Shown in pieces: positions 22,681 through 38,949 of a stretch of 51,901 bases of DNA (positions within the stretch are counted from its first letter, which is position 1; the number at the start of each line of letters is the position of its first letter). Origin of the DNA: Bacteroidota bacterium (GTDB lineage Bacteria > Bacteroidota > Bacteroidia > 2-12-FULL-35-15); NCBI GenBank assembly GCA_023251805.1, contig JAHEYB010000022.1, positions 1 to 51,901 of the forward strand, in the 5' to 3' direction. The notes beneath the pieces are model-generated. The model made no database searches and was not told the origin of the DNA. It was given only the letters and a program-made list of their open reading frames with translations. The position numbers were made by a program, and so were the translations under genes.

Positions 22681-25600
22681 CTAATATGAATCCAAATCGA
22701 TGGGACGTAGTACTCCAAACCACTTCAGCGTTTTTTCACCAACATCCGGCACATTCACATAAATGATATACATACCGCTTGCAATAGGAACTCTAGCTTG
22801 GTTCTTTAAATCCCAATCTAACGATGTTTTAGGGTCCGATTTACTATATTTCCGTACCAATGTTCCGTTCAATGTATAAATTGAAATGTTACACTTTTCA
22901 GGAAGATTCGTAATTTTTACAATGTTCTCCAACGCTTTTTTCTCATATGCTGAATATGCATAATACGGATTTGGAACAATATTAATGATGTCCAAGGCAT
23001 TTTTAGCTGCATCTGCATCGTTGGTTTTTGTTTCAATATCTGTAGTATTGAAAGTATACATTGGCCAATTAATATTTTGAGGCACTAAAGCGGTATCTGC
23101 TGATGAAGCAACTGAAGTGGTATACCCTTTTTGATAGGATTTTGCGACTCGTATTCTAAATTTAACAGTCGATTCAAAACATGCATGCCCCGCTGCAAGC
23201 AATGGAATATTTACCCACATTGCATCTGTGAATGCTTCTTTTCTGTAAGGATTATCTCCAATAACAGTACCCATTAAACTCGTAATAGAAAGTAAATTAT
23301 AAACTGTTTTTCCCTGGTCGTAACGCGGAACATCTCGTAAGGCATTCGGCAAATATGCATCCGTAGCAGAAAATGAGGCATCTCCATTATGACCGAAAAT
23401 GTAGATGAAATGTTTTCCACCAAATAATGGATCACCATTATCAGCATATTTTGCACTCGTTGGATTCCACATCATATCCGCCCCATTTTCAGCTGTTAGC
23501 CAGGAATCCTCTCCAAATGCCATATTCAAGCGTTCACCTGTTTCTACATTAATAGCATATCCCGGAAACCAACCCATACTTGTGGAACTTGTTAAGCTCC
23601 CTTCAGCCGCATTGTATAAACTTCCATCATTGATATCATGTCCATTTTTATCTACCGATGCTTGATCGCGCAGCATTAATTTTTTTGCATTGCCTACAGA
23701 TAGTGCATCTTCATCACACTCTTCTAAAACCGGACAACGAGTCCACAACGATTTATCTTGCGTAATTACAACATCAACTGAAGCTATGTTAAAAAATTTG
23801 TTTTGACTAATGTACCATGGCCAGGCAGGAGAACCTTTTGCATATAGAGTTGTAGCTATGGGTTCGGTAGGACTTCCTGTTGCACACAAACGATAAGGCG
23901 CCCAGGTTTTTCCAAGAATATTTTCATAGTCTTGATTATTATCCAAACCAACTCCTACAGAAACAATTACATCATTAAAATGCGTTTGCCCAGTAGGATA
24001 AGTTGCTGCTCCCGAACGAATCCAATTTGAATAACTTGTTCCTTCTTCATCTGCCAAACCTGTTAGCCATTGTTTTGTATTATCAGCAAATTCAACTGTT
24101 GCTTCCAAGAAACCACCTTTTAATGAACCTGCATTTAATGGATCGGCTGCGTAAACAACATTCACTGATATTCCCCAAGATGGGATTGTATAGGCTGTAG
24201 AACCGGAAGGTTGGCCGTTAATGATTTGCTCATTTGCCAATGCAATGGTTTTATCAGATGTAATTGTTTGTCCTGTAGCTAAATTTTTCAAGGTCCAAAT
24301 AGCCGCAGAAGTAATTGACGAATTACCAGCAGTATCTATAATTTTAAATTCGAAATTAGTTTCGACAGGTACACTTAATGGATCTACAACTTTAATGTTA
24401 ACCGGGCCACGACTTTGTTCGTAAACCGGATTTAAAACACGAGCAGAAGACGCATTTAAAATGTCATTCACGCTGCTAGAAGTTAAATCCAAAATATTAC
24501 CACCATTTCCATGTCCTTCGATACGTGTTAATTTAGGACCGGTTCCATAGGTTGAATACGCTTCTGTGCCACCGGCTTCAGGAGCAGGAATATGAGGAAT
24601 GGCAGAATGATTAAAATATCCATCAGAATATTTATTACTGGAAATAAATGGTAAGTAATCTTTGGGTGTTCCAAAATCAGGTGTTACCAATGTTGGAGAA
24701 TAACCATAAGCTACAATTGCATAGTAATATGTTTTATGATTTATTAATTTAGGATTTCCTGTTGCAAATTTATCTTCTGTAACAGAAAAAGAATGAATCA
24801 CACCAACATCAGCACCATTCACCATTTCTTGAGGAACCATTGCTTGCAATGCAATATCATTTTCATAATTTACAATCTGTGTTACGGTATCATGTATATC
24901 ACATTGAAAAACAATTCTTGCTTTGTCAACGTTATATAATTCGGTTGAAGAAACTGTTTCATCTTTTAATTGATAAATAATATATCCTTGAAAAGCATAA
25001 GGAACATCAGCACCGGAAGATTTATCATAATCTTCGGTATATTCTTCATTGTAATTATTTGATGTGCTCGGATTGGTCCAAGATAAAATCAATTCATTAT
25101 CTAATTCCTGAATTGCCAAGTTGGGAGCATTAGGACCATTTAATAATGCAAAACAATTATTAAATAAATCCTGCGCTTTTGCATCTGCACCTTTCATTAA
25201 TGTTACAGAAGCTAAGTTTCCACCTTGTGTTGCTCTTGCCCAAACTAAACCTGTAGTAATTGTATTTACTGCACCAGGTTGTAATGTAAACGGACCGGCA
25301 CTTTGAAGGAAACGCCTATCAGCCGGAACATTCCCCGCAATGGCTTCATCCCAAGGAGCTTGCGGATTTCCATTTGTTCCAAAGGCCAATGGGTCGGATG
25401 TCCCCGGGAACATGTAATCACAAGCAATTCCGGTTAAGTGACCTGTACCACCATACGTAATTGGCGTACCATCTCTCCAAATTCCACGTAAGTAATTATA
25501 AAAATCAACTGCTCCACTTGGATCACCTGAAGCTGTAGAGCCGTTATTATAATATACAAACTTCGCCATTCCAATTCGTTCATTATCTGCTTTATCATCA

Positions 25601-26736
25601 CCATAACCCACAAAACTGGAAGGAACAGTTGATGGCAAATCATCCTGTCCATTTGGATCGGCATAAGGTCCTTCAAAAAAATCGCAACCAATTGCAGGAG
25701 GATTTGCACCATAAGGAATTTGTCCGGGTGGAGGATTATCATCCACCAAATCTCCATTGTATGCATAACCTAAACCAAGTCCAACATCACATCCAACATA
25801 ATCGTCAGATGCTGAACCAACATCTGCATCTACCCAAACACCAAAATAAGTACTATCTAAGCGAAAAGAAGATTTATTGATAATTTTATAATGATAGAAC
25901 GTCATGTTATTAATTGCATCATTTGTTTGAAAAGCAAAAGCTTGTGCTTGAATTTCTAAGCCAATTGCTGCACCACCGGTTTCGGTGTGAACGTTTCCTT
26001 TATCGTTAAATACCCAATACAAAACTTGATCGCCATACAATTCTGCATCGCAAGGAGAAAATACATATCCGGCTGAATCAGGGCGAGTACCATCACCTAA
26101 CCAAAAATCGGGATAATCACCAGCGTATGGATCGTAAATACCATTTCCATTTGCATCATAAAAAGGAGCCATAGCTTGGCCTTCAGGACCGGTTGTTGGC
26201 CAATTTAAAATAGCATCCATTGCTGAAGGATCGGTTGGATTAGAACCATCTTGATTTAAAAACCAATCTCTGTAAATTTTAACATCACTTTTATTTATTT
26301 TAAAAATTTTGTCCCAAGCCAAACACGTTATTGCATCGGTACTTGCCGATGAACTAAGTGGTCCGGGCCAAAAATCGTTACCTGTTTGACGATATGTCAT
26401 GGCGGCAACCTTTAATGTTCCTGCAGCATCAATTCCACCAATCCACAAAGCCCCCGCATACAAAGATGTTGGCCCATGTGTACCGGCAGCCGGCTTAGGC
26501 ACATAATAAGCTCCATTCACCAAGTCCCACCACATATCACCACCATTGAGTATGGTTGCTCTTACATTATTAATATCCAAATCTGCTTTAGCGCTCGCTG
26601 GAGCACATAATGTCATAACAGATTTGGTTTGGTTTTGGGATGTTGCAATGCTTCCTCCAACTTTCTCTTTTGCATTTGATGCTAAAGAAATGTGTAAGAT
26701 GCTTGCAGTGAAGATAACTTTAAAGTGATTCTTCAT
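22681..26736 (-). CDS. Giant exported protein B, probable type IX secretion cargo
   Basis: A 1351-residue protein with an N-terminal signal peptide (MKNHFKVIFTASILHISLASNA). Residues about 50-130 hold DINNVRATILNGGDMWW and YAGALWIGGIDAAGTLKVAA, blocks typical of an unnamed Bacteroidota family. A Ca-binding-like DANGNGIYDPYAGDYPD loop follows near 200, then a fibronectin-like middle. The C-terminus has NIVPNPYYAYSAYEKK, ISIYTLNGTLVRKYSK and ASGMYIIYVNVPDVGEKTLK, resembling a T9SS sorting domain, but it ends in an extra WFGVLRPIDLDSY. It is a full-length paralogue of the gene at 27974; stretches such as 24420-24490 are nearly identical in DNA. No enzyme motif is recognised. Confidence 0.8.
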   Translation of the reverse strand: MKNHFKVIFTASILHISLASNAKEKVGGSIATSQNQTKSVMTLCAPASAKADLDINNVRATILNGGDMWWDLVNGAYYVPKPAAGTHGPTSLYAGALWIGGIDAAGTLKVAAMTYRQTGNDFWPGPLSSSASTDAITCLAWDKIFKINKSDVKIYRDWFLNQDGSNPTDPSAMDAILNWPTTGPEGQAMAPFYDANGNGIYDPYAGDYPDFWLGDGTRPDSAGYVFSPCDAELYGDQVLYWVFNDKGNVHTETGGAAIGLEIQAQAFAFQTNDAINNMTFYHYKIINKSSFRLDSTYFGVWVDADVGSASDDYVGCDVGLGLGYAYNGDLVDDNPPPGQIPYGANPPAIGCDFFEGPYADPNGQDDLPSTVPSSFVGYGDDKADNERIGMAKFVYYNNGSTASGDPSGAVDFYNYLRGIWRDGTPITYGGTGHLTGIACDYMFPGTSDPLAFGTNGNPQAPWDEAIAGNVPADRRFLQSAGPFTLQPGAVNTITTGLVWARATQGGNLASVTLMKGADAKAQDLFNNCFALLNGPNAPNLAIQELDNELILSWTNPSTSNNYNEEYTEDYDKSSGADVPYAFQGYIIYQLKDETVSSTELYNVDKARIVFQCDIHDTVTQIVNYENDIALQAMVPQEMVNGADVGVIHSFSVTEDKFATGNPKLINHKTYYYAIVAYGYSPTLVTPDFGTPKDYLPFISSNKYSDGYFNHSAIPHIPAPEAGGTEAYSTYGTGPKLTRIEGHGNGGNILDLTSSSVNDILNASSARVLNPVYEQSRGPVNIKVVDPLSVPVETNFEFKIIDTAGNSSITSAAIWTLKNLATGQTITSDKTIALANEQIINGQPSGSTAYTIPSWGISVNVVYAADPLNAGSLKGGFLEATVEFADNTKQWLTGLADEEGTSYSNWIRSGAATYPTGQTHFNDVIVSVGVGLDNNQDYENILGKTWAPYRLCATGSPTEPIATTLYAKGSPAWPWYISQNKFFNIASVDVVITQDKSLWTRCPVLEECDEDALSVGNAKKLMLRDQASVDKNGHDINDGSLYNAAEGSLTSSTSMGWFPGYAINVETGERLNMAFGEDSWLTAENGADMMWNPTSAKYADNGDPLFGGKHFIYIFGHNGDASFSATDAYLPNALRDVPRYDQGKTVYNLLSITSLMGTVIGDNPYRKEAFTDAMWVNIPLLAAGHACFESTVKFRIRVAKSYQKGYTTSVASSADTALVPQNINWPMYTFNTTDIETKTNDADAAKNALDIINIVPNPYYAYSAYEKKALENIVKITNLPEKCNISIYTLNGTLVRKYSKSDPKTSLDWDLKNQARVPIASGMYIIYVNVPDVGEKTLKWFGVLRPIDLDSY

Positions 26737-26762
26737 CTTGTTAGTATTAAATTAATCCAAAA

Positions 26763-26796
26763 AAAAAGAGAATCCCAAGATGGGGATCCTCTTTAT
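26763..26796 (-). terminator. Intrinsic terminator after the PorV-like gene
   Basis: AAAGAG-ATCCC / GGGAT-CTCTTT hairpin with one mismatch, A-rich on its plus-strand left, located between the PorV-like gene and giant protein B. Confidence 0.65.
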
Positions 26797-26844
26797 ATTA
26801 TAAAAAATAAAATTATTACAAGCTTGTTGCGCTTGTATTAATTT

Positions 26845-27924
26845 TTACAAATTAATTCTTGCACCAAGTGAATGTGTTCCTTGGAATGGGTCAGTTGCTC
26901 TATAAGAATAATCAATAGCAAATGTTGATTTATTTTTTCCGAAAGGAAGTTCAACTGTAAAGCCTGCGCTAGGACCTGTAAAAACAGTAGTTCTCAACTC
27001 TTTGTCTCTGATATTTTTTTCATGACAATATCCAACGCGAACCATTAACATATTTTTCCAAGCGTACTCCAAACCAACTTTCAAGTGATTGTTCTCAAAA
27101 GAATTAGAAGTGAACGTACCCATAGCAGTAACTCTGTGCGTTTTCATAGAAGCACTGTCTTTCATTAAATAAAAATCGTACCCTGCGCCTATGCTTAATA
27201 ACGAAGGCAACTCAAATTGTGCTGTTCTGTTTTGAACGGTGTAAGTAGTACCTGTTGTGCTTCCCGGAATTTCAGCTTTCACGTCCAAACCATCTCCAGA
27301 AAATTTCATACGAGGTCCAACATTTTTCAAAGCAATACCAAATTTAATTTGATTGTATTTTCCTGCTACGTATTGAATACCTGCATCAAAAGCAACACCT
27401 CTCGCACTTACGTTAGCTGTTTTTTCAGAAATTACTTTTAGGGTTAATCCACCATAAATATTATCTGAAAACCCTTTTGCATAGGATACTCCAACATTTA
27501 CAAATTGAGGAGAATAAGTACCGATACCACCTTCAGGATTATCCTCTGTAGTAATTTCGATATCACCAAAATCCATTGACATTATAGATAAACCAATAGC
27601 CCCAGTTTCACCAACACGTTGAGTCAATCCAAAAGAATTGATATTGATATCCGTTCCTTTTAACCAGTTCGTACGACAAAACATCAGTTCTGTTTTCTTG
27701 GTGAAAGCTGTACCGGCAACGTTCAAGAACATTGCTTCCAGTCCTCTGGCACCAGAAATATTAGAACCTGCCCATCCGGAACTACGTGCCCAAGGGTTAA
27801 TTAATAACTCGGTTGCACCTGCCTGACCGGAACGATCAGGATTACCAGCTAATGCTTTATTAGTTGGTGTTAAAAACAAGCCTACAAGGACAAGTGGTGC
27901 TACTATTTTACTATATTTTTTCAT
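26845..27924 (-). CDS. PorV/PorQ-family outer-membrane protein
   Basis: A 359-residue protein with signal peptide (MKKYSKIVAPLVLVGLFLTP...ALA) and a beta-barrel pattern. The N-terminal mature block QAGATELLINPWARSSGWAG followed by GLEAMFLNVAGTAF is the PorV/UPF0164 signature, and the chain ends HSLGARINL, a barrel-type last strand. In T9SS, PorV carries CTD-bearing cargo from the SprA translocon to the attachment complex. Here the gene sits exactly between two paralogous giant exported proteins, which suggests a dedicated shuttle or anchor for them (inference). It is probably not the housekeeping PorV. Confidence 0.85.
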   Translation of the reverse strand: MKKYSKIVAPLVLVGLFLTPTNKALAGNPDRSGQAGATELLINPWARSSGWAGSNISGARGLEAMFLNVAGTAFTKKTELMFCRTNWLKGTDININSFGLTQRVGETGAIGLSIMSMDFGDIEITTEDNPEGGIGTYSPQFVNVGVSYAKGFSDNIYGGLTLKVISEKTANVSARGVAFDAGIQYVAGKYNQIKFGIALKNVGPRMKFSGDGLDVKAEIPGSTTGTTYTVQNRTAQFELPSLLSIGAGYDFYLMKDSASMKTHRVTAMGTFTSNSFENNHLKVGLEYAWKNMLMVRVGYCHEKNIRDKELRTTVFTGPSAGFTVELPFGKNKSTFAIDYSYRATDPFQGTHSLGARINL

Positions 27925-27973
27925 ATGTCAATATTTATGAATCTTTATTCTAATACAAATTATAATTGTCAGA

Positions 27974-30900
27974 CTAGTACGAATCCAAATCGGTTGGACG
28001 CAATACACCAAACCATTTTAATGTTTTTTCTCCTACATCCGGTACATTAATATAAATGATATACATACCACTTGCAATAGGAACTCTTGCCTGATTTTTC
28101 AAATCCCAATCCAAAGAAGTTTTAGGATCATCTTTCGCAAATTTTCTAATTAATGTACCATTCAATGTGTAGATAGAGATGTTACACTTTACCGGAAGAT
28201 TTGTGATTTTAGCTATGTTTTCCAATGCCTTTTTCTCATATGTAGAATAAGCATAGTATGGATTTGGAACAATATTAATAATGTCCAAAGCATTTTTAGC
28301 AGTTTCAGCATCATTGGTATGTGTTTCAATATCTGATGTATTGAAAGTATACATTGGCCAGTTATTATTCTGTGGCGTAGCAGAAATATCCGTACTAGAA
28401 GGTACGTTAGCAGTGTATCCTATTTGATACGATTTAGCAACGCGTAATCTGAATTTCACAGTTGCTTCAAACAAAGAGTGACCGGATGCTTTCAAAGGAA
28501 CATTCACCCACATTGCATCAGAAAAACATTCACGTCTGTAAGCATCGCTTGTTCCACCTGTTGAAGTTGCACCGGCAGAAAGAGCAGCCGCATTCAATAA
28601 ATCATGGATTACTTTTCCATTATCATAACGAGGAACATCTCTTAAAGCATTTGGTAAGTATGCATCAGTACTTCCATAAGTAGCATCAGCATTGTGACCA
28701 AAAATATAGATGTAATGTTTACCACCAAATAATGGGTCACCGGTTGCAGCGTACATTGAACCGGTTGGATTCCATTTCATGTCGTTTCCATTTTCTGTAA
28801 CCAACCAAGAATCTTCACCAAATGCCATATTCAAGCGCTCTCCTGTTTCTAAGTTAATTGCATAACCAGGGAACCAACCCATACCTGTAGCAAAATCATT
28901 ATTATTTGTTGAAGGGAAGTTTGCTACTCCGTTTTTATCTACTGATGCCTGAGCGCGCATAAATAATTTTCTTGCACCACCAACAGCCAAAGCTTTATCA
29001 TCACACTCTTCCAAAACAGGACAACGTGTCCACAATGCTTGGTCGGTAGTAATCACAATATCAACCGAAGCTAAGTTAGCCGTTTTGTTTAATGAAATGT
29101 TTGTAGGCCAAGCCGGAGCACCTTTTGTATAAACCGAAGTTGCGGTGATGTCTGTAGCAGAACCTGTAGCACAAACACGATATGGTGCCCATGTTTTGCC
29201 TAAAATATTTTCATAATATTGCTCAGGGTCTGTTCCCGTTCCACCTGCATCGTTAAAGATGTTGTCAGGAGCTGTAAACACACCTGCTCCGGAACGAATC
29301 CAGTTTGAGAAGGTTGTTCCTTCTTCATCTGCCAAACCAGTTAACCATTGTTTTGTATTATCAGCAAATTCAACTGTTGCTTCTAAGAAGCCACCTTTTA
29401 CAGCGTTTGTAGTTAATGGGTCGTTTGTAAAAGGAACATTTACCGAAATACCCCATGTAGGAATACTATAAACGGTGGAACCTGATGGTTGACCATTAAT
29501 GATTTGCTCATTAGCAAGGGCAATGGTTTTATCAGATGTGATTGTTTGTCCTGTTGTTAAATTTTTCAATGTCCAGATTGCTGCAGTTGTAATTGTTGCA
29601 GTACCTGCAGTATCCAATAATTTGAATTCGAAATTATTTTCAACTGGTACACTTAAAGGATCTACTACTTTAATTGCAACGGGGCCACGACTTTGTTCGT
29701 AAACCGGATTTACAACACGAGCAGAAGACGCATTTAAAATATCGTTTACGCTGCTAGAAGTTAAATCCAAGACATTTCCACCATTTCCATGTCCTTCTAT
29801 ACGTGTTAATTTAGGACCAGTTCCATAAGTTGAATGTGCTTCTGTTCCTCCGGCTTCAGGAGCAGGAATATGAGGAATTGCAGAGTGATTAAAATATCCA
29901 TCAGAAGATTTGTTACCGGAAATAAATGGTAAATAATCTTTAGGGATTGCAAAATCAGGAGTTACTAATGTTTGAGAATAACCATAAGCAATTACTGCAA
30001 AATAATATGTTTTATGGTTTATTAATTTAGGATTTCCTGTAGCAAATTTATCTTCTGTTACTGCCAAAGAGTGAACCACTCCTATATCGGCACCATTTAC
30101 CATTTCTTGCGGAACCAATGCTTGTAACGCAACATCGTTTGTAAAATTCACAATTTGTTTCACGTTATCAGAAATATCACACTGTAGAATGATACGTGCT
30201 TTGTCCACGTTATACACATCAGCACTTGTTACTGTTTCATCTTTTAATTGATAAACAATATATCCTTGAAAACGATACAATGAATCACTTCCCGAAGATT
30301 TATCATAATCTTCGTTATACTCTTCATTTTTGTTATTTGAATTTTCAGGATTGGTCCATGTTAAAATTAATTCATTTTCTAATTCCTGAATTGCCAAGTT
30401 AGGAGCATCCGGTCCATTCAATAAAGCAAAACAGTTATTAAATAAATCCTGCGCTTTTGCATCCGCACCTTTCATTAATGTTACAGATGCTAAGTTTCCA
30501 CCTTGTGTTGCTCTTGCCCAAACTAAACCTGTAGTAATAGTATTTACTGCTCCCGGTTGTAAGGTAAACGGACCAGCACTTTGAATAAAACGTCTGTCAG
30601 CAGGCACATTTCCCGCAATGGCTTCATCCCAAGGAGCTTGTGTACTACCATTTGTTCCAAATCCTGTTGGGTCAGATGCGCCAGGAAACATGTAGTCACA
30701 AGAAACACCTGTAATATAACCTGTTCCACCATAAGTAATAGAAGAACCATCTCTCCAAATACCATTTAAGTAATTATAAAAATCGGTTGCACCACCGGGG
30801 TTTCCACTTGGTGAACCATCGTTGTTATAGTACACAAACTTTGACATACCAATGCGTTCGTTATCCAAAGTACCATCTCCATAACCAACAAAACTTGCCG

Positions 30901-32023
30901 GAACTGTTGATGCTGCTTCGTCAATACCATTTGGATCTTTAAAAGGACCTTCAAAGAAGTCGCAACCAATAGCAGGAGGATTTATACCATAAGGAATTTG
31001 TCCGGATGGAGGATTATCATCTACTAAATCTCCATTATAACAATACCCTAAACCTAATCCAACATCACAACCTACATAGTCGTCAGATGCTGAACCTAAA
31101 TCAGGGTCAACCCAAACACCAAAATAAGTACTATCTAAACGGAAAGAGGACTTATTGATAATTTTGTAGTGATAGAAAGTCATGTTGTTGATAGCATCAT
31201 TTGTTTCAAAAGCAAAAGCTTGTGCTTGAATTTCTAAACCAATTGCAGCACCGCCTGTTTCGGAGTGAACGTTACCTTTATCGTTAAATACCCAAAATAA
31301 AACCTGGTCACCAAATATTTCAGCATCACAAGGAGTAAATTCATATCCTGCTGAATCCGGGCGAGTATTATCACCTAACCAAAAATCAGGATAATCACCG
31401 GCATATGGATCGTAAACACCATTTCCGTTTGCATCATAATAAGGTGCTAAAGGCTGACCTTCCGGATTTAAAGATGGCCAATTTAATATCACATCCATTG
31501 CTGATGCATCTGTTGGATTAGAACCAACTTGACCGCTATTGAACCAATCAATATAAGTTTTTACATCTTTCTTATTCAATTTAAAAAATTTATCCCAAGC
31601 CAAACATGTTACCGCATCAGTAGTTGCTGAAGAAGTAAGTGGTCCTGGCCAAAAATCGTTACCTGTTTGACGATAAGTCATACCCGCAACTTTCAAGGTT
31701 GAACTCGCATCAATACCACCAATCCATAAGGAACCGGCAAACAATGATGTTGGACCATTAGCTCCGGGAGCAGGTTTTGGAACCAAATACTTTCCATCCG
31801 TTAAATTCCACCACATATCACCACCGGTTAAAATGGTAGCTCTTACGTTGTTAATATCCAAATCCTCTTTGGCAGCAGCAGGAGCGCACAATGCCATAAC
31901 CGATTTAAATTGATTTTCATTGTGGGATGTTGCAATACTTGTCCCTACGTTTTCTCTTGCCTGCGCGGTAAAAGAAAATGCAAAGATGGATGCAGTTGCG
32001 ATTAATTTGAAACGATTCTTCAT
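27974..32023 (-). CDS. Giant exported protein A, probable type IX secretion cargo
   Basis: Start placed at ATG 32023 (MKNRFKLIATASIFAFSFTAQA) because it aligns with the paralogue; seven extra in-frame codons (MLLNNNN) precede it. 1349 residues. Same architecture as protein B: DINNVRATILTGGDMWW, FAGSLWIGGIDASSTLKVAG, DANGNGVYDPYAGDYPD, an Ig/Fn3-like middle, and a C-terminus ISIYTLNGTLIRKFAK ... ASGMYIIYINVPDVGEKTLK plus the terminal WFGVLRPTDLDSY. It differs from B mainly around residues 930-1020. Only 43 bases from the TonB-dependent receptor upstream, so probably co-transcribed with it. Confidence 0.8.
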   Translation of the reverse strand: MKNRFKLIATASIFAFSFTAQARENVGTSIATSHNENQFKSVMALCAPAAAKEDLDINNVRATILTGGDMWWNLTDGKYLVPKPAPGANGPTSLFAGSLWIGGIDASSTLKVAGMTYRQTGNDFWPGPLTSSATTDAVTCLAWDKFFKLNKKDVKTYIDWFNSGQVGSNPTDASAMDVILNWPSLNPEGQPLAPYYDANGNGVYDPYAGDYPDFWLGDNTRPDSAGYEFTPCDAEIFGDQVLFWVFNDKGNVHSETGGAAIGLEIQAQAFAFETNDAINNMTFYHYKIINKSSFRLDSTYFGVWVDPDLGSASDDYVGCDVGLGLGYCYNGDLVDDNPPSGQIPYGINPPAIGCDFFEGPFKDPNGIDEAASTVPASFVGYGDGTLDNERIGMSKFVYYNNDGSPSGNPGGATDFYNYLNGIWRDGSSITYGGTGYITGVSCDYMFPGASDPTGFGTNGSTQAPWDEAIAGNVPADRRFIQSAGPFTLQPGAVNTITTGLVWARATQGGNLASVTLMKGADAKAQDLFNNCFALLNGPDAPNLAIQELENELILTWTNPENSNNKNEEYNEDYDKSSGSDSLYRFQGYIVYQLKDETVTSADVYNVDKARIILQCDISDNVKQIVNFTNDVALQALVPQEMVNGADIGVVHSLAVTEDKFATGNPKLINHKTYYFAVIAYGYSQTLVTPDFAIPKDYLPFISGNKSSDGYFNHSAIPHIPAPEAGGTEAHSTYGTGPKLTRIEGHGNGGNVLDLTSSSVNDILNASSARVVNPVYEQSRGPVAIKVVDPLSVPVENNFEFKLLDTAGTATITTAAIWTLKNLTTGQTITSDKTIALANEQIINGQPSGSTVYSIPTWGISVNVPFTNDPLTTNAVKGGFLEATVEFADNTKQWLTGLADEEGTTFSNWIRSGAGVFTAPDNIFNDAGGTGTDPEQYYENILGKTWAPYRVCATGSATDITATSVYTKGAPAWPTNISLNKTANLASVDIVITTDQALWTRCPVLEECDDKALAVGGARKLFMRAQASVDKNGVANFPSTNNNDFATGMGWFPGYAINLETGERLNMAFGEDSWLVTENGNDMKWNPTGSMYAATGDPLFGGKHYIYIFGHNADATYGSTDAYLPNALRDVPRYDNGKVIHDLLNAAALSAGATSTGGTSDAYRRECFSDAMWVNVPLKASGHSLFEATVKFRLRVAKSYQIGYTANVPSSTDISATPQNNNWPMYTFNTSDIETHTNDAETAKNALDIINIVPNPYYAYSTYEKKALENIAKITNLPVKCNISIYTLNGTLIRKFAKDDPKTSLDWDLKNQARVPIASGMYIIYINVPDVGEKTLKWFGVLRPTDLDSY

Positions 32024-32066
32024 ATTGTTATTATTAAGTAGCATTTAAATTCTTTGTTGGTTGTGA

Positions 32067-35000
32067 TTAAAAATCAAGCAATAATCCGATACGAATAACA
32101 CGTGGACGGCTATAGTTACTTGGGTTATTATTTTTAATAGCATATAAATCTCTAAAAGACTCAGGGTCATTTTGACTAGAAATAAGTGTTTGGGCCTCCG
32201 CTGAATTTAAATATCCGTCATCATCTGGGTTACCCGTAGCTTTATAAACTGCCAACACATTTTTAGTATTTAACACGTTCAATACTTGTAAGTAAACAGT
32301 TAGGTTTGCTGTTTTCTTTTCTGCTCCTTCTTTTTTACCACCAAAATTAATTTCCATATTCTTGTCGATACGTAAATCCACTTTGTACGACCATGGTAAA
32401 TTCGAACCATTGATTTGTCCATCAAGAGCAGTGTTTCCACCACCGATACCAAATTGACCTTCGTGAGTAATATTAGCTTGTTTGCTGTAGGGAGTTCCTG
32501 AACCTGCTCTGAATACAACGTTTGCTCCAACATTTTCTAAGATGCCAATTGATTTTTCGTTTTCTTTTCCTTTGTTCAATTTTAAACGTGGACCACGATA
32601 ATCTGTTTTAGCACCAAAACGGTAATCGAAGTTTAAAGTGATGGTATGACGTTGGTCAAAATCCAAAGGGTGAGTAGTTCTTAAGTTTGGAACTCCTGAA
32701 GAAACAAGGTTTTGTCCGTCAGTAGTACTTGAACCGGTACCATCAGCAAATTGTAGCGTATAGTTTGCGGTCATAGAAATTCCACCTGTTCTTCTTAAAT
32801 CGTATTCAACAGATAAACCTTTTACAGTTCCAAAATCCACGTTTGAGAAAGAGTTATAAGATGTTGGATATGCTTGAACAACGTTTGTTGTTTGAATCAT
32901 ATCTTTCTTCTCAATGTAAAACATAGTCAACTTCAACGTTGAGTTTTTCTTCTCATTTAATATTTGCTGATATCCAATTTGATAATCAACAGATTTCTCA
33001 GGTTTCAAATCAGGATTGTTTACATATCCACCTTGGTTATTCACTACATTTAAATATTGTAATGGATCTAATCTGTTATAATCCGGTGGACGTTGCGTTA
33101 ACACATCGTAATGAGCATTGAAACTAGCCACATCAGAAATAGGGAAAGAGAATGCGATACGAGGCATTACACTTAATTGAGGAACATAATCTTTAAACAC
33201 TTTAGAAGAAAGTGATTTATCTGCCGGGTCAACTAAATAAGGTTGTACTTGTCCAGCACCTTGTCCTAAAGCAGCACTTGGGTCAGTCACCTCAACACCC
33301 GCAGCATTGTACCATGTATCACCATCGCGGTAACCTACCACTTGATTTACACTTGGGTTAGAAGCATCTTCTACATATACTACATAATCATCTCCGATAT
33401 TTTCAGGACGATTAGGAATTGAAAGCTCACCTGCTGTTTTTGCTTCATATAATAAGTACTTATCTTTTAATACTTTTTGGTTGGCATCAAAACGGTCGAT
33501 ACGTAAACCCACGTTAAACTTTAAATCTTTAAAGTCGAAACGATCCATCACATATCCTGCAATATAGATTGGACGGTAAGCTCCGATTTCACGCGTTAAG
33601 TTTCCTTTATCATCTGTTTTTGTAAAGAAATCATCTAAACTTGGGTTACCTGAAGTTTTTTTGCCGGTATGGTCGTAACCATAGTAACTAACGATTCCTG
33701 TACCACCGATGTTTAATAAGTCATCTGCACTAAACATATCTAGGCTGTACATATCTTTATCGTATGAATCAACATCTAACCAATCTAAGCCGTTTACATT
33801 ATAACCTAAAGCTTCTCTTAAGCTTCTGTCGAATTGAGTTTGTGTACCATCATTCAAACGATTGAAATCGTAATAAGCATAAGGACTAACGGTTCCATCA
33901 GGCAAATAATGAACGTCAGTATTTAAAATGGCATCATTCATTCCATCGTCTTGCAAGTTGGTGATGTGAAAGTTTGCCAATTCACGCATTCTTGTCCACA
34001 ATCCAATTGGATTCAAGTTATATTGACGTTCAACACGTTGTTCATATTCAAATCCAACTTGTATAGCGTGACGTTTAATATCTGCCGAAAATTTTGCAAA
34101 TACACGGAATTGAGAATTGTCTTCCAAAGAATAACCATTGAACTGACGACCGGTATTGTACCAAGCAGAATAAACGTTTCTTGGTCTGTCGCCATTTGCT
34201 AATCCTAAACCTGATTGAACATCAAATAAGTTCACGACATTTGATGCACCAAAGAAATCAAAAAACTGATTTGTGTAAGGCACACCTGTGGGATTTACAT
34301 CTCCTGGAACATATGCCAAACTTACATCTTGATATCCATCTAAGAAAAATCCGTTGATTGTATCTAATGTACCATCACCGTCTACGTCATAAATGTCTCG
34401 TGTTTCTGGTGTATATGATTTTTCTTTTGTTTGGGTGAATTTACCAATGTAACCATAATCAAAGAATTTATCCTTGTGGTTATCATCCTGTGTTTTTTTG
34501 AATTGTTTTTCGTAACCTGCTTGAAGAGTAAAATAGGCATCCTTAATAATAGAGGAAGATTTTTCTTCTTCTTTAGCTGTTGCAGAGTTAAACTTCTGAG
34601 TTAATTTAGCATAAACTCTCCAAGTATTTGCTGTTTTTTCAGCGTTGTTAGAAGGATTGAATAAAGCGTACTCATAGGTAAAGTCATGGTATTTTTGATA
34701 ATCAAGAGAACCACCTAAGGTAATACCCATATTTGTAGTTGGCTGGTATTGCACTTTTCCAGCCAAAGACATAGATGTTTGAGCAACGTTATTTCTAGCC
34801 TTGATTTTTTGTAAGTCATCGTATTTAACGTACTCAGAATTTAATACATAACCATTTCCTTGTGGAGAAGGACGAAGAGGTGCTTGTTCCAATTCTGCTA
34901 ATTTTTCAGGATTCACTTGGTAAAAACCAACAGCTGATGGATTAGGATCCTTTTCTGAAACAACTTGTCCGGATATACTAAAACCTAAAACAGACTTAGT

Positions 35001-35831
35001 CGTATTTCCTGAAGAATCTTTTTTAGCTAACAAAGGACCATTTACGGAGAAGCCAACTAAGTTATATCCGAAAGCATCTAATCCGCGACTTTTACCATTT
35101 TTTTCACCGGCACCCGAAGTTACTACTTCAATTCCACCAGTATACTTACTTGCAGGACCTCTGGTAGTAATAGCAATAATACCACCTGTAGCATCACCAT
35201 AATCAGCAGGAGTACCGCCAACAATAGATGTAATTTGTTCAACACCACTTTGAGGAACACCAGAACTTCCAATTACTTTTTGACCATCCACATAATAAGC
35301 AGTTGCATTATCACGCGAACCTCTAACGTTTAGTTTTCCTCCTTCATCTTTTTGGTAGATACCTGCAGTAGTAGAAGCTACTGAGTTAATGTCTTTTGTG
35401 GCCATATTTTGGTACTCTTCACGAGTAACCGTTCCACCTGATTTTGTATCCGGGTCAATCAAAGGCTCAGCATATTCAATTACTTCAACCACTTTCAATT
35501 CCTGCCCAGCAGTTAACTCAATGTTTAAGTAAACTGTTTTTCCTACAGAAACGATAACGTCTTTTATTTCGACTGATTGATACCCAACGTAGGTTGCTTT
35601 TACATTATACTTACCAGGATTCAGAGGCTTAATCATTGCCTCTCCATCAATATTTGTTGTTCCAACTCCGGATTGAATACCGCCCATATCAACAACTACG
35701 TTCGCAAACGGAATTGTTTCTTTATTTGCTTTATCAGTCAGCTTTACTTTTAGGGCAGACTCGTTTTGTGCAATAGTCAGTCCTACTGACACTACAACAA
35801 CGGATAAGGTGGAAAGTAATTTTCTTAGCAT
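32067..35831 (-). CDS. TonB-dependent receptor with carboxypeptidase-regulatory-like N-terminal domain
   Basis: A 1254-residue outer-membrane receptor. Signal peptide (MLRKLLSTLSVVVVSVGLTIA), then a CarboxypepD_reg-like domain (about 25-110: ANVVVDMGGIQSGVGTTNIDGEA, YNVKATYVGYQSVEI), a plug domain (about 130-240: LNVRGSRDNATAYYVDGQKV, GGIIAITTRG) and a large beta-barrel ending IRIGLLLDF with the terminal Phe typical of outer-membrane barrels. It resembles SusC/Oar-like receptors, but no SusD homologue is adjacent; giant protein A takes that position. The ligand is unknown. It is longer than most receptors because of extended extracellular loops. Confidence 0.9.
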   Translation of the reverse strand: MLRKLLSTLSVVVVSVGLTIAQNESALKVKLTDKANKETIPFANVVVDMGGIQSGVGTTNIDGEAMIKPLNPGKYNVKATYVGYQSVEIKDVIVSVGKTVYLNIELTAGQELKVVEVIEYAEPLIDPDTKSGGTVTREEYQNMATKDINSVASTTAGIYQKDEGGKLNVRGSRDNATAYYVDGQKVIGSSGVPQSGVEQITSIVGGTPADYGDATGGIIAITTRGPASKYTGGIEVVTSGAGEKNGKSRGLDAFGYNLVGFSVNGPLLAKKDSSGNTTKSVLGFSISGQVVSEKDPNPSAVGFYQVNPEKLAELEQAPLRPSPQGNGYVLNSEYVKYDDLQKIKARNNVAQTSMSLAGKVQYQPTTNMGITLGGSLDYQKYHDFTYEYALFNPSNNAEKTANTWRVYAKLTQKFNSATAKEEEKSSSIIKDAYFTLQAGYEKQFKKTQDDNHKDKFFDYGYIGKFTQTKEKSYTPETRDIYDVDGDGTLDTINGFFLDGYQDVSLAYVPGDVNPTGVPYTNQFFDFFGASNVVNLFDVQSGLGLANGDRPRNVYSAWYNTGRQFNGYSLEDNSQFRVFAKFSADIKRHAIQVGFEYEQRVERQYNLNPIGLWTRMRELANFHITNLQDDGMNDAILNTDVHYLPDGTVSPYAYYDFNRLNDGTQTQFDRSLREALGYNVNGLDWLDVDSYDKDMYSLDMFSADDLLNIGGTGIVSYYGYDHTGKKTSGNPSLDDFFTKTDDKGNLTREIGAYRPIYIAGYVMDRFDFKDLKFNVGLRIDRFDANQKVLKDKYLLYEAKTAGELSIPNRPENIGDDYVVYVEDASNPSVNQVVGYRDGDTWYNAAGVEVTDPSAALGQGAGQVQPYLVDPADKSLSSKVFKDYVPQLSVMPRIAFSFPISDVASFNAHYDVLTQRPPDYNRLDPLQYLNVVNNQGGYVNNPDLKPEKSVDYQIGYQQILNEKKNSTLKLTMFYIEKKDMIQTTNVVQAYPTSYNSFSNVDFGTVKGLSVEYDLRRTGGISMTANYTLQFADGTGSSTTDGQNLVSSGVPNLRTTHPLDFDQRHTITLNFDYRFGAKTDYRGPRLKLNKGKENEKSIGILENVGANVVFRAGSGTPYSKQANITHEGQFGIGGGNTALDGQINGSNLPWSYKVDLRIDKNMEINFGGKKEGAEKKTANLTVYLQVLNVLNTKNVLAVYKATGNPDDDGYLNSAEAQTLISSQNDPESFRDLYAIKNNNPSNYSRPRVIRIGLLLDF

Positions 35832-37629: not shown

Positions 37630-38949
37630 TTAATATCTGTAAGCGTCTGATTTAAATGGCCCCTGTACAGCTACTCCAATATATGCAGCTTGTTCAGCCG
37701 ACAATACATCTAATTCGCAATTAATTTTTGCCAAATGCAAACGTGCAACTTTTTCATCCAACTGTTTTGGCAAGGTATATACTTTATTTTCATACTTATC
37801 GGTATGCAACCACAATTCTAATTGTGCCAATGTTTGGTTTGTAAATGAGTTACTCATAACAAAAGATGGATGTCCGGTTGCGCAACCTAAATTAACCAAA
37901 CGACCTTCTGCCAAAACAATAATATCTTTTTTATCGATGGTATATTTATCTACCTGAGGTTTTATCTCATCTTTTGTTGTTCCATAATTTTTGTTCAACC
38001 AAGCCATATCAATTTCGTTATCGAAGTGACCAATGTTACAAACAATAGCATTGTTTTTCATTGCTCTGAAATGGCGCTCCGAAATAATATTTTTATTTCC
38101 TGTTGCAGTTACAACAATATCGGCTTCTTTTACAGCGGTATCCATTTTTTGAACTTGGTAACCATCCATAGCAGCTTGTAACGCACAGATAGGATCAATT
38201 TCAGTAACTATTACACGTACGCCTTGAGAACTCAAAGATTCTGCAGAACCTTTTCCAACATCACCATAACCTGCTACTACAGCTACTTTACCAGCAAGCA
38301 TCAAATCAGTAGCTCTGCGAATAGCATCCACTAATGATTCGCGACAACCATATTTATTATCAAATTTTGATTTTGTTACTGAGTCGTTCACATTGATTGC
38401 AGGAATATGCAATGTTCCATTTTTCATTCTTTCGTATAAACGGTGAACACCGGTTGTGGTTTCTTCCGATAAGCCTTTTATCCCTTTTATCAATTCGGGA
38501 TATTTGTCAAATACCATATTGGTTAAATCGCCACCATCATCTAAAATCATATTCAAAGGTTTTCGGTCTTCGCCAAAAAACAAAGTTTGTTCGATGCACC
38601 AATCAAATTCTACTTCATTCATTCCTTTCCAAGCGTAAACAGAAATACCTGCATCAGCAATTGCAGCTGCCGCATGATCTTGAGTAGAAAAAATATTACA
38701 CGATGACCAAGTCACTTCTGCGCCCAATTCTTTTAGTGTTTCAATCAAAACAGCTGTTTGAATAGTCATATGCAAACAACCAGCAATGCGCGCACCTGCA
38801 AGTGGTTGTGACTTACCATACTCCGCGCGTAAGGACATTAAACCTGGCATTTCTGCCTCGGCTAATTTTATTTCTTTTCGTCCCCAAGCTGCCAGAGACA
38901 TGTCTTTTACTTTATGTTTTACGAATTTTTCCACGGTTGAATTTGACAT
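37630..38949 (-). CDS. ahcY: S-adenosylhomocysteine hydrolase
   Basis: Reversibly splits S-adenosylhomocysteine into adenosine and homocysteine, closing the methylation cycle. A 439-residue protein with the full set of family blocks: [20 protein letters not shown] (substrate side), [15 protein letters not shown], the NAD-binding [13 protein letters not shown] (about residue 230) and the C-terminal [10 protein letters not shown] end that completes the cofactor site of the neighbouring subunit. It is isolated from other methionine-cycle genes here, with its own terminator. Confidence 0.97.

Follow-up and report, generated by a model that had tools for sequence, protein, structure and literature searches.

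The window analysed here, a 51,901-nucleotide stretch of a Bacteroidota contig, carries four co-oriented open reading frames on the minus strand, lying where an earlier reading of the DNA, made from the sequence only, had placed them. The features are as follows:

32067-35831, minus strand: TonB-dependent receptor, 1254 aa, with a signal peptide, a CarboxypepD_reg N-terminal extension, plug and barrel; first gene of the triad described below
27974-32044, minus strand: giant A, 1356 aa, with a signal peptide, a conserved N-terminal half (N-half, about 51-710), a variable middle and a conserved C-terminal domain (CTD, about 1250-1356)
27977-28336, minus strand: sorting-type CTD of giant A, resembling the PorZ tail, with about 10 extra conserved terminal residues (GxxRPxDLxxF)
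26845-27924, minus strand: PorV-like protein, 359 aa, a predicted 14-strand FadL-type barrel of the PorV/PorQ family, in a clade of its own
26765-26794, minus strand: intrinsic terminator 3' of the PorV-like gene, ending the conserved TonB–giant–PorV unit
22681-26736, minus strand: giant B, 1351 aa, a recent duplicate of A, beyond the terminator

The intergenic gaps measure 22 bp (receptor to A), 49 bp (A to PorV-like) and 108 bp (PorV-like to B), and signal peptides are visible on all four proteins; the true start of giant A is probably M8. The 1254-residue protein had rightly been called a TonB receptor, with the Pfam plug (27.7 bits, cut-off 23.9), TonB barrel (51.7 bits, cut-off 27) and CarboxypepD_reg models all above their cut-offs, and it is the sole full-length member of its kind in the window's genome. 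Upstream of the triad lies a probable adenosylhomocysteinase gene (37630-38949, 439 aa). A 439-aa frame occupies the matching place in some relatives of the genus (L222, L225), and elsewhere in the phylum it is not part of the triad.

The terminator (12 pairs, -16.7 kcal/mol, z -3.85) separates the PorV-like gene from giant B in the window, and terminators occur at the same position in two relatives (L225 and L221, in genomes G003 and G035). Because it is also kept in a relative without B (G035), we regard the receptor, giant A and PorV-like genes as the conserved unit, the triad, and B as an add-on. The sequence-only reading described A and B as sharing a signal peptide, an N-half, a Ca-binding-like loop and a tail. 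They do share these, but the likeness is not confined to them, as identity between the two proteins is 79% over the full length and 89% in the last 120 residues, the CTD. This identity, together with a tree of giants in which the B copies group in a clade by themselves, on longer branches, rules out anciently shared halves and identifies A and B as recent near-full-length duplicates. Two giants flanking one PorV-like gene were found in two species only (those of the window and of G003), by recent duplication.

No domain in giant A or B scored above any Pfam or NCBIfam cut-off, and the giants form a large uncharacterised protein family that has no model in either collection. An AlphaFold model of the giant is confident across residues 45-1240 (mean pLDDT 85.7). 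The PDB fold search matched the giant only weakly and in part, to the beta-supersandwich portions of carbohydrate enzymes (TM about 0.15-0.2), and we draw no functional claim from matches of such low TM. The Ca-binding-like loop (DANGNGVYDP) stands as a conserved motif, but it has no match to a Pfam EF-hand model.

Conservation of the locus was assessed with giants collected from one genome per species (80 full-length giants) and supplemented by phylum-wide searches, the neighbourhoods being annotated with profiles grown from the window proteins. Neighbours were counted at 119 giants that were 1000 aa or longer (size range 1,000–1,500 aa) and had enough flanking sequence on either side; 106 have a TonB receptor directly upstream and 104 a PorV-like gene directly downstream. 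Both neighbours are present at 102, so that the refuting condition set in the sequence-only reading, homologues mostly lacking these neighbours, does not apply. The order receptor, giant, PorV-like is kept on the same strand almost everywhere, with median gaps of 28 and 30 bp. All 40 loci fetched from distant parts of the phylum contain the triad with order, strand and short gaps preserved, the giant being split in one, and the flanking genes vary between lineages. These counts rule out a chance neighbourhood. Relatives sharing the N-half but only about 570-900 aa long, with textbook type A tails, serve as a natural control for the linkage, and none of 18 has both neighbours. The sequence-only reading had proposed a dedicated export and anchoring branch built around a PorV-like gene between two giants. 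Across the phylum a PorV-family carrier is indeed linked with a giant that bears a CTD and with a TonB receptor, but the two-giant arrangement, with B past the terminator, is limited to the two species named above.

Some full-length giants are orphans that have neither a TonB nor a PorV-like neighbour (L079, L081, L082, L087, L111, L115, L116, L135, L143, L152). Several of their genomes hold a triad as well (e.g. L081 shares an assembly with triad L080), and such orphans may use the carrier of that triad. Where partners might have escaped detection, next to some of the orphan or incomplete giants, the neighbours proved unrelated (superoxide dismutase, HlyD, UvrD and TPR proteins). The short relatives L202-L214, 570-900 aa in length, stand alone and end in ordinary type A tails; they often adjoin LRR/DUF7619 T9SS proteins. 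Neighbours of about 1000 aa and 270 aa beside the short paralogues, considered as divergent TonB and PorV genes, are in fact such LRR/DUF7619 proteins and alpha/beta hydrolases.

The PorV-like protein passes the NCBIfam model for the PorV/PorQ family (NF033709, 149.1 bits, cut-off 90), which bears out its earlier assignment to the PorV family. It passes none of the equivalog models for PorV, PorQ and PorV2 (71.7, 80.3 and 46.9 bits; cut-offs 250, 220 and 325). In a tree sampling triad barrels phylum-wide and PorV, PorQ and PorV2 within the genus only, the 35 triad barrels group in a single clade (100/97) apart from the other three. Members of the PorV family fall into clean score tiers genus-wide, and it is the triad tier that adjoins giants. 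The window's genome separately encodes PorV beside PorU, PorQ, PorV2 beside PorU2, and PorZ. The equivalog scores, the separate clade and the presence of all three proteins elsewhere in the genome exclude the triad barrel from being PorV, PorQ or PorV2 itself. The structure model of the window's protein has 14 strands; its best PDB match is Flavobacterium johnsoniae PorV with bound CTD (8gl6_F, TM 0.68), followed by FadL, and BAM-complex barrels appear at ranks 20, 21 and 25 of the search. In one lineage a second, shorter PorV-like frame (219 aa) directly follows that of the triad (L078 15449-16105, L215 6024-6680).

The C-terminus of the giants had been called sorting-like, and it does match T9SS type A and PorZ tail models, but below threshold for type A: TIGR04183 gave 19.5 and 18.1 bits (cut-off 23) and PF18962 gave 14.1 (cut-off 27). 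The PorZ model NF052228 matched the tail only, at 30.3 and 24.7 bits (cut-off 260; E 1e-7 and 7e-6), and among the models the PorZ tail is nearest. The giant is neither PorZ nor a PorZ replacement, since that model was not passed and a true PorZ is encoded elsewhere in the genome (G000:C62). The CTD is the best conserved giant segment, with mean identity of 58% in the nearer set (N-half segments 48-56%, middle 34-49%) and 45% in the distant set (N-half segments 36-42%). In the ordinary type A short relatives of the genus the CTD is less conserved than the body (39% vs 46%), and in type A cargo the translocon-facing surface is poorly conserved (PMC10994853). The tails of triad giants end in the added GxxRPxDLxxF motif and depart from type A there. 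This pattern of conservation is what a private partner might impose. By distance correlation, a weak test, PorV-like divergence shows no clear preference for the giant CTD.

A tie of the giants to type IX secretion is suggested by the distribution of SprA, which was found in 197 of 198 giant-bearing genomes vs 107 of 198 genomes without a giant match (396 genomes of the phylum), an association confounded with phylogeny as SprA-lacking genomes cluster in few families. In a single giant-bearing genome, that of the window (an 80%-complete assembly), the SprA search found nothing; none of the other 91 SprA-lacking genomes has a giant. Within the genus, 34 of 36 genomes encode SprA, and the relatives that share the giant N-half carry classic type A CTDs.

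We propose that the giant would be carried over the inner membrane by the Sec pathway and then pass the outer membrane through the type IX (SprA) translocon, steps predicted from established knowledge of T9SS and from the co-occurrence with SprA. The adjacent PorV-like barrel would then take over the CTD as a private carrier, sparing it from PorU cleavage, and the uncleaved CTD on the barrel would hold the giant at the cell surface. In Porphyromonas gingivalis, PorQ anchors PorZ and PorV anchors PorU, and both clients retain their CTD (PMC5562754, PMC10202324). Export and anchoring of the giant are well supported by analogy, and anchoring without cleavage is suggested by the PorQ–PorZ precedent and the conservation of the tail. 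The N-half may pair with the TonB receptor as an extracellular subunit that captures or presents a ligand for TonB-powered uptake, as gene order and the SusCD analogy would predict. A SusCD-like job would then be done by a T9SS-delivered protein rather than by a lipoprotein. Giant B is probably served by the same barrel. In a distance-correlation test, again a weak one, receptor divergence followed that of the giant N-half (0.69) more closely than that of the CTD (0.55), controlled for the PorV-like protein and in 99.7% of half-samples; this is suggestive at most of a tie between the receptor and the N-half.

We consider it likely that the PorV-like barrel is the dedicated carrier or anchor of the giant. 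For the whole chain, from T9SS export through the uncleaved hold by its own barrel to a surface subunit of the TonB receptor, we see roughly an even chance. Somewhat more tentatively, the triad could be a fourth PorV-family carrier–client couple that assembles a three-part TonB transporter, its extracellular subunit delivered via T9SS and held by an uncleaved CTD on a private barrel.

Several known systems resemble parts of this arrangement. Like PorQ–PorZ of the P. gingivalis attachment complex, the triad combines a PorV-family barrel with a large exported protein whose CTD is putatively uncleaved and closest to that of PorZ; it differs in that the body of the giant is unrelated to PorZ and that barrel and giant are encoded together with a TonB receptor in what looks like an operon. 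Type B clients of F. johnsoniae depend on cognate PorP/SprF carriers whose genes lie close by (PMC12618676, PMC9143113). A dedicated FadL-type carrier gene adjoining the cargo and, potentially, surface anchoring are features that the triad has in common with SprF and its type B cargo (e.g. SprB), but the triad uses the PorV/PorQ family with a type A/PorZ-like CTD in place of PorP/SprF with type B. PorV2–PorU2 also places a PorV-family gene beside a large partner, although PorU2 is sortase-like and the triad barrel reaches just 47 bits against the PorV2 cut-off of 325. SusCD/RagAB likewise has a TonB receptor gene followed by a gene for a large extracellular protein. Here the sequence-only reading, which put protein A in the SusD position, went too far for anything but an analogy. 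The receptor has no SusC/RagA-type NCBIfam match at E up to 1; the giants match no SusD model of Pfam or NCBIfam, and their signal peptide ends in ...SFTAQA with no lipobox Cys, so they are not lipoproteins. The missing SusC/RagA-type and SusD matches exclude membership of SusCD, from which the triad also differs in the T9SS-type tail of the giant and in its private barrel.

The giant may instead be ordinary cargo that passes from the general PorV to PorU, has its CTD cut and ends up LPS-linked or released, the PorV-like protein doing another job such as FadL-type hydrophobic transport beside the receptor. The full PorV, PorU, PorQ and PorZ set in the genome, the structural nearness of the barrel to FadL and the ordinary CTDs of short relatives with the same N-half are all consistent with this. 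However, conservation of the giant CTD is unusually high and its end deviates from type A, the giant and the PorV-like gene are strictly linked one to one, and known carriers and clients are themselves linked (PorV–PorU and PorV2–PorU2 in this genome; SprF with type B cargo, PMC12618676). We therefore hold the ordinary route to be unlikely and the dedicated carrier to be the better reading.

Another possibility is that the triad is an envelope-building machine rather than a transporter, comparable to the Bacteroidota BAM, in which a FadL-type BamG holds the surface protein BamH beside another barrel. The underlying logic, a FadL-type barrel that keeps hold of a large extracellular subunit, is the same (PMC12578637, PMC12611786), and both the matches of the PorV-like model to BAM-complex barrels and the deep conservation of the triad fit it. 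Yet the plug and TonB barrel of the receptor are of the standard kind, many Bacteroidota lack the triad (giant match in 198 of 396 genomes), unlike what is seen for a core assembly machine, and several genomes hold at least two copies. We judge this role improbable.

The receptor could also help to export or release the giant instead of serving uptake, in the way that Oar is needed for secretion of PopC in Myxococcus, a precedent for TBDT-dependent secretion in which a receptor with a CarboxypepD_reg extension is linked to a secreted protein. We know of no T9SS tail or PorV-like barrel that takes part in that system, and PopC is presumably unrelated to the giants. The N-terminal architecture of the triad receptor is that of Oar, but CarboxypepD_reg–plug–barrel is the dominant arrangement among Bacteroidota TBDTs and so says little (PMC6434023), and the giants follow SprA and carry a CTD, which indicates the type IX route. 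An exporting receptor thus seems a poor prospect compared with a transporter built around the giant. Mere co-inheritance or co-regulation of three proteins that act separately has little to recommend it: vertical inheritance accounts for much of the congruent divergence, but all 40 distant loci retain the order, strand and close spacing despite differing flanks.

In the open-licence literature that we searched, no description of the triad was found, in agreement with the earlier statement that no characterised system has this composition. Each of its parts belongs to a known kind; neither their combination nor the PorV-family clade appears in the literature searched. If the proposed transporter is real, it would represent a SusCD-like class built by T9SS and widespread in Bacteroidota. 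The rule that T9SS clients have cognate FadL-type carriers would extend to the giant family and be tied phylum-wide to a TonB receptor. The triad offers a direct test of the suggestion made in a review that cognate PorV-like barrels may protect, or shield, CTDs from cleavage by PorU (PMC10202324), and it can likewise be used to ask whether transporter subunits may be delivered by T9SS.

Two further observations concern the surroundings of triads and giants in other genomes. At G013:C7 438090-438578 in a related genome, the PorZ search met an open frame that runs for 24,881 residues and lies some 10 kb away from an orphan giant. In ten triads of the distant phylum set (L158-L161, L163, L168, L171, L178, L190, L191), a same-strand gene follows 23-143 bp downstream of the PorV-like gene and encodes an apparent lipoprotein of 680-745 aa that has seven CxxCH haem motifs and, in those scanned, TPR repeats. 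In L114, L157, L162 and L184, proteins with seven CxxCH motifs are likewise encoded no more than about 14 kb from the triad. In the lineages concerned, the seven-CxxCH protein may connect the triad with a redox function.
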